Shown here: piece after piece, positions 16,268 to 21,042 of the stretch
Layout of the letters: each line of letters begins with the position of its first letter
Position numbering within the stretch: the first letter of the stretch is position 1
Origin: a virus
Virus record (IMG/VR): IMGVR_UViG_3300032241_001790
Coordinates: 1 to 23,736 of that record
DNA length: 23,736 bases
Strand: one strand, 5' to 3'
Position numbers and translations under genes: made by a program
Notes under the pieces: generated by a model
What the model saw: the letters and a program-made list of their open reading frames with translations, nothing else
Database searches by the model: none
Told to the model about the DNA's origin: nothing

Positions 16268-16795
16268 CTATGCCATTTCCGCCTCACTCTGCGCCAAGGC
16301 TTGCGCTAAAACTTGCTGCTTTTCATCATAAAGGCGCTCCAAAACCTCGCACAGCTTTGCAAAGTCAGGATGAATTTCGCCCTTTTTGATCCCATGCAGC
16401 ACAGTGGTGTGGTCCTTCTTCCCTGACGAACGGCCAATTTGCGGCAAGCTCATATGCCAACAGAATTTGCGAGCCAGCGCCCATATGATCTGACGAGTGG
16501 CGCATAAATGTTTAACACGCCGCTCCGCAAAAACCTCTCGACGGTGATATCCCCTGTGGTCGCATACAAGGCTGACCACCTCATCAAACTGAATACGAAC
16601 CTCATGCGGAAGAGGAATGACTGCGGGCATCCTCATTAACGGAACTACAATTTCAGGCTCTGGTTCTGGCTCTAGCGGCGGCGGGGGTAATGCAGATGGA
16701 TGAACAAATACCCTTGGCGCAGGACCATGAAGCCGAGCGCGTACTGTGGCGTAGTGGGCCATCAAGTCATCAGCGGTTGCAAACTTAGCGATCAT
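16268..16795 (-). CDS. DnaA domain IV-like DNA-binding protein, no AAA+ domain (175 aa)
   Basis: Residues about 69-140 match the C-terminal DNA-binding domain of DnaA: FDEVVSLVCDHRGYHRREVF, ATRQIIWALARKF, LPQIGRSSGKKDHTTVLHG (117-135), the last being the DnaA signature. The AAA+ ATPase is absent; instead there is a Pro/Glu-rich linker (PPPPLEPEPEPE, 37-48). It ends the replication operon, so it may bind a phage origin or DnaA boxes and recruit or displace host DnaA; this is inference. The start overlaps the previous stop as ATGA, with GGAGG in the previous gene's last codons. Confidence 0.88.
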   Translation of the reverse strand: MIAKFATADDLMAHYATVRARLHGPAPRVFVHPSALPPPPLEPEPEPEIVVPLMRMPAVIPLPHEVRIQFDEVVSLVCDHRGYHRREVFAERRVKHLCATRQIIWALARKFCWHMSLPQIGRSSGKKDHTTVLHGIKKGEIHPDFAKLCEVLERLYDEKQQVLAQALAQSEAEMA

Positions 16796-18658: not shown

Positions 18659-18865
18659 TTACACTTTTGCCACAGGTTTGCGCAAGGACAAAGTGATCTC
18701 CAGAAGCCGGATTGCTGAGGCAGGAACTTTGGTTGTCCCAGCCAACCACCGGTAAACAGTGCGGCTGCTCACTCCTAAAACCTCAGCAGCTTCATTGTTT
18801 GTAATGTTTAGAAGCCAAAGCAAATTGTTTAACTTGCTGGCGGCGTCAGGCAGGGATGTGTGCAT
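18659..18865 (-). CDS. Small HTH DNA-binding protein (68 aa)
   Basis: The product has a clear helix-turn-helix: NLLWLLNITNNEAAEVLGVS followed by RTVYRWLAGTTKVPASAI, as in XRE-type regulators. It is little more than the DNA-binding domain. The frame is open further upstream, but ATG at 18865 is the likely start after the overlapping upstream gene (20 bases); the ribosome site is weak. It may regulate the nearby operators; targets are unknown. Confidence 0.72.
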   Translation of the reverse strand: MHTSLPDAASKLNNLLWLLNITNNEAAEVLGVSSRTVYRWLAGTTKVPASAIRLLEITLSLRKPVAKV

Positions 18866-19172
18866 CGTACATCTCATCAATAGCTTGGACCACATCTGCC
18901 TCAGACCAAACAAAGCTGGGATCATTAGGGCGGTTCTTAAGTGCGCAATAAGCGGACCACAAATCAGGGTTTACCGCACTGCACAAATCAAAACCGGGGA
19001 TTTCCGGCAAAAGTTCTGATTGTTCGATAAGATCAAGGATGGCCTTTTCGCGAGTTTGACCATACCCAATCTTGTCAGTTGGCTGGCCGTCATAAGTGCT
19101 GTCGTCGATGGCAGACCAATCCATGATGCGGGTTCCAATTGGAGGGCAGTCATAGGTGACACGGATTTTCAT
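18846..19172 (-). CDS. Hypothetical phage protein, CPPIGTRIMDWSAIDD type (108 aa)
   Basis: The product begins MKIRVTYDCPPIGTRIMDWS and continues YDGQPTDKIGYGQTREKAIL, then DLIEQ. This is a recurring N-terminal pattern of small alphaproteobacterial phage proteins of unknown function. The C-terminal 50 residues are acidic. GGGAG lies seven bases before the ATG at 19172, after a leader hairpin at 19200-19221. Confidence 0.72.
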   Translation of the reverse strand: MKIRVTYDCPPIGTRIMDWSAIDDSTYDGQPTDKIGYGQTREKAILDLIEQSELLPEIPGFDLCSAVNPDLWSAYCALKNRPNDPSFVWSEADVVQAIDEMYDAHIPA

Positions 19173-19229: not shown

Positions 19230-19454
19230 TTATCCGCGAGCCATGTGAGGAACGTCGAGGGCGGCGCGATGGGCCTCGTCGAAAGTCTGGGTGGTGTAAG
19301 CGGTCTTGATTTCCAGCAACTCCCAGTTGTTGCCAGTCTTTTCTTTGCGGCGGTCGGCAACCTTCTTGGCGGTAGCAAGATTGTGGAATGTGTCGCACTG
19401 GGCAATCTGCTGGCCGAGGGAGAGATCGCTGTTGTTGTTGATGAGGTAGTACAT
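19230..19454 (-). CDS. Hypothetical small protein (74 aa) with its own promoter
   Basis: ATG at 19454 is preceded by AGGAG at seven bases. The product (MYYLINNNSDLSLGQQIAQC, FHNLATAKKVADRRKEKTGN, NWELLEIKTAYTTQTFDEAH) looks like a small alpha-beta fold and is unknown to me. It stands behind the promoter at 19499-19527 and the leader hairpin at 19474-19491, so it forms its own unit, perhaps reading on into 18846-19172. Confidence 0.68.
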   Translation of the reverse strand: MYYLINNNSDLSLGQQIAQCDTFHNLATAKKVADRRKEKTGNNWELLEIKTAYTTQTFDEAHRAALDVPHMARG

Positions 19455-19473: not shown

Positions 19474-19491
19474 GCGGGCAATCCCGCCCGC
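19474..19491 (-). promoter_or_regulatory. Leader hairpin of the 74-aa gene
   Basis: GCGGGC and GCCCGC form a perfect six-pair stem with a six-base loop, followed by CCAACAGGAG and the start codon. Same placement as the hairpins at 20288 and 20677. Confidence 0.6.
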
Positions 19492-19498
19492 AGTTAGG

Positions 19499-19527
19499 TG
19501 TTTAGAGTGATTTGGATTTTATGTCAA
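19499..19527 (-). promoter_or_regulatory. Promoter A (TTGACA, 17, TAAACA) with TGACA direct repeat
   Basis: On the minus strand TTGACA (19527-19522), 17 bases, TAAACA (19504-19499). A second TGACA lies eight bases upstream of that in the -35 (ATGACATGTTGACAT), as in promoters B and C. Confidence 0.65.
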
Positions 19528-19563
19528 CATGTCATTTGAGGGATAATATACGGTTTGGCTTTT

Positions 19564-19851: not shown

Positions 19852-19863
19852 GGCCACATTCCT

Positions 19864-19903
19864 GTCGGAGTTTGTCGGAGTTTGTCGAAGTTTGTCGGAG
19901 TTG
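19864..19903 (-). repeat. Four tandem 10-base repeats in the leader of the 95-aa gene
   Basis: Four head-to-tail copies of gtcggagttt (third copy gtcgaagttt, fourth ends g) with no spacer. The ten-base period is close to one helical turn, so a protein could bind all copies on one face. They abut the G6-CAT-C6 hairpin. Confidence 0.85.
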
Positions 19904-19918
19904 GGGGGCATCCCCCCA
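19902..19918. terminator. GGGGGG-CAT-CCCCCC inverted repeat
   Basis: TGGGGGG and CCCCCCA pair around a three-base centre, six bases beyond the stop of the 114-aa gene. A T-tract is missing, so it may be a weak terminator or a leader hairpin for the next gene. Confidence 0.45.
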
Positions 19919-19923
19919 TTTCA

Positions 19924-20268
19924 TTAAACATCGTAGAAGTTTGAGATATCACGGGTTTCGCCAAGCAAATCGCGGCAGTCATGACCGAAGCCCTCAAGCC
20001 ATTCGCGCATTTTCTTCCAAGCGTAGCGGTTGTTGGCATCAAAATCATGGAAGACCAGATCGGCGATATCGCCAGTTACATCTGTGGTGGTCCCAGCGGC
20101 AATGTCGATGGTCAACACTTTGGCGATATCGTCAGCGTCCACCTGACCTTCGAGGATATCCGAAACAACCTGATCAAAGGTCTGAATGGGCGCTTCGCTG
20201 ATCCAGTTTCCGGGGATCTTGTTGCCGCTATAGGGACCGTTGCGAACGATGATGGTGAAGGTGTTCAT
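19924..20268 (-). CDS. Hypothetical acidic protein (114 aa) with its own promoter
   Basis: The product starts MNTFTIIVRNGPYSGNKIPG, is acidic (ILEGQVDADDIAKV, GDIADLVFHDFDANN) and ends in a helical segment. No family recognised. GGAG lies seven bases before the ATG, behind promoter B and its leader hairpin. Confidence 0.7.
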   Translation of the reverse strand: MNTFTIIVRNGPYSGNKIPGNWISEAPIQTFDQVVSDILEGQVDADDIAKVLTIDIAAGTTTDVTGDIADLVFHDFDANNRYAWKKMREWLEGFGHDCRDLLGETRDISNFYDV

Positions 20269-20287
20269 TGTCTGGCTCCGTTGTTGC

Positions 20288-20303
20288 CGGGTAGTCCAAC
20301 CCG
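20288..20303 (-). promoter_or_regulatory. Leader hairpin B (CGGGT-TGGACT-ACCCG)
   Basis: Five-pair stem with a TGGACT loop, followed by CAACAACGGAGCCA and the start. The outer pair is C-G here and G-C in hairpin C, a compensatory change that supports an RNA structure. Confidence 0.65.
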
Positions 20304-20311
20304 ATGAAGTG

Positions 20312-20340
20312 AGACTAGATCATATGCGGGGACATGTCAA
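20312..20340 (-). promoter_or_regulatory. Promoter B (TTGACA, 17, TAGTCT)
   Basis: TTGACA at 20340-20335 and TAGTCT at 20317-20312 on the minus strand. It drives the 114-aa gene. The -35 lies inside the operator-like inverted repeat 20328-20354. Confidence 0.7.
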
Positions 20341-20354
20341 CATGTCATGCCCCC
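20328..20354. promoter_or_regulatory. Operator-like inverted repeat over promoter B
   Basis: GGGGACATG and CATGCCCCC are nine-base arms (one G-T pair as RNA) around nine bases; the whole also contains two tandem copies of ACATGTCA. It covers the -35. Confidence 0.6.
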
Positions 20355-20369
20355 TTTTATGAAATTATT

Positions 20370-20657
20370 TTAGGCCAGCACAGGAGCCTTGATTGCCTTC
20401 ACGCGGATGGTGGTAACAAGCTCGCCGGACTTGGTGCAGGCCGCAATCTGTTCGGCGGTCAGCAGCTTCTTGGCGGCGGTCGCATCGAAGCGGACAGGCT
20501 CGGAGAGGGTGACGGTAACGACGTTGCGGTCGCCCACGATCTCGTCCATGCCGGTGGCTTTGATCTCGGCCTTAACTTCGTCCAGCAGGCGGGTCAGTCC
20601 ATCAATCTCGGCCTTGATGGCGGCGTAGCGGTCAGCGAGGGTGTTAAGGTTGCTCAT
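20370..20657 (-). CDS. Coiled-coil phage protein, TVTLSEPVRFDA type (95 aa)
   Basis: The N-terminal half is a coiled coil (LADRYAAIKAEIDGLTRLLD, EVKAEIKATGMDEI). The second half, GDRNVVTVTLSEPVRFDATA, AKKLLTAEQIAACTK, TTIRVK, resembles small phage proteins encoded in recombination/replication regions and, distantly, the Gp157-like layout (helical hairpin then beta segment). No function assigned. GGAG lies seven bases before the ATG, behind promoter C. Confidence 0.7.
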   Translation of the reverse strand: MSNLNTLADRYAAIKAEIDGLTRLLDEVKAEIKATGMDEIVGDRNVVTVTLSEPVRFDATAAKKLLTAEQIAACTKSGELVTTIRVKAIKAPVLA

Positions 20658-20676
20658 GTCTTGGCTCCGTTGTTGT

Positions 20677-20692
20677 GGGGTAGTCCAACCCC
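20677..20692 (-). promoter_or_regulatory. Leader hairpin C (GGGGT-TGGACT-ACCCC)
   Basis: Same loop, position and downstream CAACAACGGAGCCA as hairpin B, with a swapped outer base pair. Confidence 0.65.
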
Positions 20693-20701
20693 ATGAACAG
20701 G

Positions 20702-20730
20702 AACCTAAATGGAATCAGGGAGCATGTCAA
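20702..20730 (-). promoter_or_regulatory. Promoter C (TTGACA, 17, TAGGTT)
   Basis: TTGACA at 20730-20725 and TAGGTT at 20707-20702 on the minus strand; drives the 95-aa coiled-coil gene. The -35 sits inside the inverted repeat 20718-20744. Confidence 0.7.
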
Positions 20731-20744
20731 CGTGTCATGCTCCC
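20718..20744. promoter_or_regulatory. Operator-like perfect inverted repeat over promoter C
   Basis: GGGAGCATG and CATGCTCCC are perfect nine-base arms around nine bases holding the TTGACA core. It has the same geometry as the element at promoter B. Confidence 0.65.
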
Positions 20745-20760
20745 CTTTTGCAAATTATTT

Positions 20761-21042
20761 TCAATCTTTTTGCATAGCCTTGCCAAGCGGGGTGTCTTCC
20801 CACCTAGTGATAGCTCGCATGTACACGTCCACCATTGTCTCGCGGGCCTCGCGCTTGCTGGGATCTTCCCTGCGCATCTTCACAATCTCCTTGAGGGCGG
20901 AAGCATCATAACCGCGCCCCTTGGTTTCTTTGTAGATGTCTGAAATATCCGATGCGAGCTGCTTCTTTTCTTCTTCAAGCCGCTCAATGCGCTCAATGAT
21001 CTCGATCACATCACGCGTTGCGTTATCGCCAATGTCATTCAT
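20761..21042 (-). CDS. GapR/DUF2312-family DNA-binding protein (93 aa)
   Basis: The sequence follows the DUF2312 (GapR) pattern: IEIIERIERLEEEKKQLASD, ISDIYKETKGRGYDASALKE, IVKMRREDPSKREARETMVD, VYMRAI. Chromosomal GapR of alphaproteobacteria binds overtwisted DNA ahead of replication and transcription and aids topoisomerases; a phage copy probably serves phage DNA replication. The C-terminal dozen residues (WEDTPLGKAMQKD) go beyond the usual family end as I remember it. Its start overlaps the rusA stop by eight bases. This family is the best host clue in the window. Confidence 0.9.
   Translation of the reverse strand: MNDIGDNATRDVIEIIERIERLEEEKKQLASDISDIYKETKGRGYDASALKEIVKMRREDPSKREARETMVDVYMRAITRWEDTPLGKAMQKD

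Follow-up and report, generated by a model that had tools for sequence, protein, structure and literature searches.

The window, by which we mean the whole stretch of DNA analysed, is a 23,736-base virus record in which several small genes lie on the minus strand: a 95-aa gene (20370..20657), a 114-aa gene (19924..20268), a 74-aa gene (19230..19454) and a small HTH protein (HTH-88; 18659..18925, the true start probably falling inside this range). The 95-aa protein has a weak match to the C-terminal part of the RecE-like exonuclease family phrog_434 (E-value 0.0016); all 22 of the 22 members of its family match the same part, with a best E-value of 1.6e-5, and the structure model of the window protein (pLDDT 67) was too poor for a fold search. 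The 114-aa gene has a relative at 64% in G008. A 10-base unit, TGTCGGAGTT, occurs in four tandem copies at 19863-19902, in the leader of a 115-aa ORF, and a G/C hairpin at 19902-19918, between the 114-aa and 115-aa genes, gave a terminator-like call on the plus strand. An Rfam scan of the window returned a tRNA and nothing further.

A preliminary description of this region had reported that the spacers before the 95-aa and 114-aa genes are near copies, and had proposed that a reusable expression cassette was placed before different small genes that share one switch. The near identity of the two spacers is borne out: cassette 1 (20658..20760, minus strand, 103 nt, before the ATG at 20657) and cassette 2 (20269..20369, minus strand, 101 nt, before the ATG at 20268) are identical in 79 of 104 columns of a global alignment, with a score of 121, compared with 28.5 ± 6.9 and a maximum of 54 for dinucleotide shuffles (n = 1000) and with 66.5 for the best of 6668 other stretches of the window. 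Every element that had been listed was found, namely AAATAATTT, AAAAGGGG, an inverted repeat of 27 or 28 bases, TTGACA-17-TAG, a hairpin with a TGGACT loop, and CAACAACGGAGCC; the proteins encoded behind the two spacers give no match to each other, as had been stated.

In cassette 1 the inverted repeat spans 20718..20745 (hairpin z -3.3), with outer arms GGGAG/CTCCC flanking a 17-bp core, CATGACACGTTGACATG (20723..20739), that overlaps the -35 (20725-20730). A GATTC, which is a GANTC site that had been overlooked, lies between the -35 and -10 at 20712..20716, followed by a putative -10, TAGGTT (20702..20707), whose position is conserved in the alignment, a predicted start at the A at 20694, and the leader hairpin GGGGT-TGGACT-ACCCC (20677..20692). 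Cassette 2 follows the same plan, with a 27-nt inverted repeat (20328..20354; hairpin z -4.1), the core CATGACATGTTGACATG (20333..20349) over its -35 (20335-20340), a putative -10, TAGTCT (20312..20317), a predicted start at the A at 20305, and the leader hairpin CGGGT-TGGACT-ACCCG (20288..20303), in which the outer pair is C-G rather than the G-C of cassette 1. Both -10 hexamers are poor, and cassette 2 also contains a competing -35/-10 pair, ATGACA-18-TATGAT, with the alternative -10 just upstream of TAGTCT. A third, diverged copy, also missed previously, lies at 19474..19536 on the minus strand before the 74-aa gene; it has a ATGACATGTTGACAT core (AATGACATGTTGACATA), TTGACA-17-TAAACA, a predicted start near 19491 and the hairpin GCGGGC-GGGATT-GCCCGC, and has neither outer arms nor GANTC. 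Promoters were picked partly by eye, and start sites were derived from sequence.

Searches of IMG/VR recovered the unit, with synteny, in seven further viral contigs (G001-G007), giving 17 cassette sites in total when the window is counted. The window TerL is 48% identical to that of an environmental phage and 44-45% identical to those of Roseobacter phages CRP-901/902; by such comparison the group is kin to Roseobacter phages, and the host of these uncultured phages is probably an alphaproteobacterium, to judge from the relatives and from GANTC depletion only. Across the relatives a gene string keeps its order, one side comprising Gp157-like, Rad52 and a small downstream gene and the other Cro-like, p69, RusA, GapR, cassette 1, the 95-aa gene, cassette 2 and variable genes. 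Pfam matches underlie the GapR, DnaA C-terminal and Rad52 domain assignments; the names Gp157, SSB and RusA were given by eye. No match among cultured phages was obtained from a DNA search with the region or a protein search with the 95-aa gene. A search of bacterial genomes with the leader pattern left, among the matches listed, three chance-like matches after a screen for paired arms, and bacterial genomes may still carry the cassette. The core-plus-GANTC pattern in IMG/VR gave, beyond the group, chance matches in unrelated phages.

The tandem pair, with its copies about 380 bp apart, is present in the window and in G001, G002, G004, G005 and G007; G006 retains copy 1, after which its contig ends. 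In the relatives, G003 excepted, the 95-aa family stands behind copy 1, and it is mainly the cargo of copy 2 that changes, with at least four unrelated genes found there: the 114-aa gene in the window, a 76-aa gene in G001, another gene cut by the contig end in G005, and in G002, G004 and G007 a 92-aa family related to the 115-aa ORF of the window. In G003 there are two core promoters, one before a distant 95-aa relative and one after GapR (L156 3443, minus strand) before a 291-aa ArdC-family antirestriction protein (ArdcN match 1.6e-32), which suggests an early counter-defence cargo. As the pair is common to the relatives and the cargo of copy 2 varies, this is a long-standing arrangement in which some of the cargo is variable. 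The proposal of a reusable cassette therefore stands insofar as a conserved unit precedes unrelated genes, chiefly at copy 2, but not as a recent placement; it looks as if new early genes are slotted in behind a control unit that was already there.

Comparison of the sites showed that the invariant part of the unit is not the 27-base repeat, which had been taken as the operator, but the 17-bp core CATG-N4-S-TTGACATG. The CATG-N9-CATG spacing occurs 16 times in the 104 kb of these contigs, with TTGACA inside every occurrence, compared with 1-6 occurrences for any remaining spacing between 5 and 13. With a weight matrix derived from the sites, these score 19.5-29, unrelated places 13.9 or less, and the opposite strands of the sites up to 16.2. 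Within a genome the four bases that follow the first CATG are similar from site to site, and between genomes they differ (within-genome difference 0.36 versus 2.3 when permuted, p = 5e-5), which points to a phage-specific regulator and argues for the single switch of the preliminary description, since all copies in one phage carry the same core. A third site in G002, about 4 kb away and with unrelated flanks, has the same CAGA core bases, so that local gene conversion would not explain the likeness of the cores. The dyad is shared by several promoters of one phage and its type is tied to the genome, as would be seen for the operator of a phage repressor or Cro.

The outer arms, on the other hand, differ even between the two copies of one genome (T/A versus A/T in G005; GATCGCGGGA.. 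versus GGGGGG.. in G002), and the whole repeat consequently fails as a conserved operator. Each arm nevertheless pairs better with its own partner than with permuted ones (mean -11.4 versus -8.2 kcal/mol, p = 5e-5, 10 distinct arms), and arms that vary in sequence yet stay complementary behave as structure. This pattern suggests a core read by its sequence, nested in a hairpin maintained as structure; the arm pairing could alternatively be due to template-switch repair of quasi-palindromes.

Leaders were folded from the A of a conserved CAT, taken as the transcription start. A hairpin is located at +1 to +3 in 18 of the 22 leaders so defined (Stouffer z -8.3; -5.5 outside the group). Distant relatives also have a leader hairpin, with unrelated stems and loops (CGGC-AAUGAC-GCCG and GGUC-GCUGAU-GACC), while the leader of one of them, L193, folds no better than its own shuffles. 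Hairpins at the 5′ end guard bacterial mRNA against RppH and RNase E (reviewed in PMC3997798), and the leaders resemble the stabilising stem-loops of the ompA and papA type described there in that the hairpin lies within a few nucleotides of the 5′ end, here a predicted one. Folding from an upstream start hinted at a leader that hides the ribosome site, but this was gone when folding began at the predicted +1, and the idea of an RNA switch was given up; an MS2-like GGAUUACC in the leaders of relatives was taken as chance.

GANTC occurs in the -35/-10 spacer at 13 of the 17 sites, with T, A or C as the middle base, against 0.5 expected from each record's own density, a count to be read with the shared descent of the contigs in mind, as are those for DnaA boxes, because neither is made of independent trials. 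Within the window one of the three cassettes has the site; cassettes 2 and 3, one G001 site and one G003 site lack it. Overall the window has 15 GANTC sites, 0.14 of expectation, making it the most depleted palindrome of its form; depletion reaches 0.06 in G008 and about 0.5 in other relatives. Eight of the nine perfect DnaA boxes in these contigs, TTATCCACA, precede a core by 7-35 bp on its own strand (L154-L159, L033), mostly directly after the GapR gene, and there is none in the window. Such boxes could mark a replication origin or a DnaA-controlled promoter. These phages also encode a protein with a DnaA C-terminal domain (16268-16795 in the window). Sister phages have another palindrome inside the -35/-10 spacer (GCGAA..TTCGC and TGAAA..TTTCA; L160 4187 and 6066, L193 6339), and G008 combines another spacer palindrome with the same layout of 5′ leader hairpin.

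Taken together, we consider it probable, at roughly 0.65, that the spacers are copies of a conserved, shared and regulated early-promoter unit with a 5′ hairpin. A host sigma-70 polymerase would use the perfect TTGACA with the weak -10 and begin transcription 7-8 nt beyond it, at the A of the conserved CAT. A dimeric phage regulator, most likely HTH-88 encoded downstream, would occupy the CATG-N9-CATG core, which overlaps the -35; the copies of a given phage would thereby all respond together, and the regulator would feed back on the gene string it belongs to. A short stem-loop would open the transcript, shielding its 5′ end from RppH and RNase E while leaving the ribosome site open, and the spacer GANTC and, in relatives, the upstream DnaA box may add host control. 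HTH-88 is a lead as the predicted reader of the core: its recognition helix carries N in two CAGA genomes and R in three AC genomes, five genomes in all, and a wider search found homologues with other promoter types that did not extend the correlation. The Cro-like 68-aa protein was disfavoured as core reader; the same recognition helix region is present in L158 and L159 despite their different cores.

Several other explanations were weighed against a regulated early-promoter unit. The cassette could be at heart a host cell-cycle promoter, in which a methylated spacer GANTC recruits GcrA-polymerase, DnaA, of host origin or as the phage protein with a DnaA domain, works through the upstream box, and the dyad is secondary. 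The enrichment of GANTC in the spacer with a variable middle base, the placement of the perfect DnaA boxes, the depletion of GANTC in the window and the weak -10 are all in keeping with it, as are precedents from Caulobacter, where one class of cell-cycle start sites is characterised by GANTC between -10 and -35 (PMC4287350) and mutation of GANTC cripples several GcrA-dependent promoters (PMC3667746). We regard this as possible though rather unlikely given the four sites that lack GANTC, the lack of a DnaA box in the window, the non-independence of related sequences, and a survey of alphaproteobacterial phages in which GcrA and DnaA sites had no positional bias (PMC9437464). Translational control of the CsrA/RsmA kind, with the leader loop presenting GGA and a second GGA in the ribosome site, would account for the GGAY that nearly all group leaders carry in their loop region, on differing stems (UGGACU, UGGAUU, GGGAUU and UGGAUG; GGAU in G001b), but the loops of distant relatives have no GGA (AAUGAC, GCUGAU), G003b has no 5′ hairpin, and most copies share the loop by descent, so that we consider it very improbable.

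It is also conceivable that the repeats persist mainly as shared sequence for swapping small genes by homologous recombination, like the T4 PeSLs. The differing cargo of copy 2 and the Rad52-like and RusA genes adjoining the cassettes fit such a module, yet the copies are only about 75% identical, their arms differ within one genome, and the genome-specific cores and conserved leaders would need regulation in addition; we judge it unlikely as the main explanation. That the inverted repeat instead serves the upstream transcript, as a terminator or an RNA-processing hairpin, and overlaps the promoter by chance, appears quite doubtful. Strong hairpins whose arms stay complementary as their sequence changes, and a TTTT after the window copies on the opposite strand, speak for it; however, that T run is not retained in relatives, core sites without arms exist, and template-switch repair could likewise keep the arms paired. 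A terminator on the gene strand was rejected, as the hairpin is followed by no U tract and the terminator scan made no call.

Among known systems, the ESAS of cluster K mycobacteriophages (PMC3203893, PMC11373665) pairs an inverted repeat with a SigA-like promoter and is often accompanied by an SAS at the start codon. In both cases a sigma-70-type promoter of 17-18 spacing and an imperfect inverted repeat recur before several unrelated small non-structural genes, and the repeat consensus varies between phage subgroups. The 13-bp SAS, GGGATAGGAGCCC, is not found here at the start codon, where CAACAACGGAGCC or a similar sequence stands instead; in the present unit the core lies across the -35, the two copies of one genome have different outer arms, and there are 2-3 copies rather than about seven. 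A leader hairpin, GANTC and a DnaA box are not among the ESAS features given in the accounts consulted. The cassette works like an ESAS and, without the SAS sequence, is not filed as one. The PeSLs of T4-like phages (Arbiol 2010, Comeau 2014, cited in PMC4503421), as summarised in the citing article, likewise combine an early promoter with a stem-loop amid changing small genes, but their stem-loops are described as promoter-terminator composites, whereas no terminator tail is present here. GcrA/CcrM promoters of Caulobacter resemble most of the sites here in having GANTC between the -35 and -10 of a sigma-70-type promoter (PMC4287350, PMC3667746); the putative promoters here belong to a phage, bear an additional dyad over the -35 and in 4 of 17 cases lack GANTC. 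On its sequence features the unit is nearest to ESAS and PeSLs and falls fully within neither definition.

Promoter-plus-leader cassettes, known from T4-like and cluster K phages, now also extend to a group related to Roseobacter phages, in which setting the copies of a single genome side by side tells apart a regulator site read by its sequence and a hairpin kept as structure. Given the placement of GANTC and DnaA boxes, a link of phage early transcription to host cell-cycle control can be tested directly. It is a speculative and decidedly unlikely extension that the module reads the replication state of the host, with the DnaA box, a CcrM-methylatable GANTC and the phage-specific -35 dyad jointly gating the small early genes; if so, these genes, including the ArdC-type gene in one relative, would fire at a permissive stage of the cell cycle. 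The cassette also marks the location of changing early genes in metagenomic phages.
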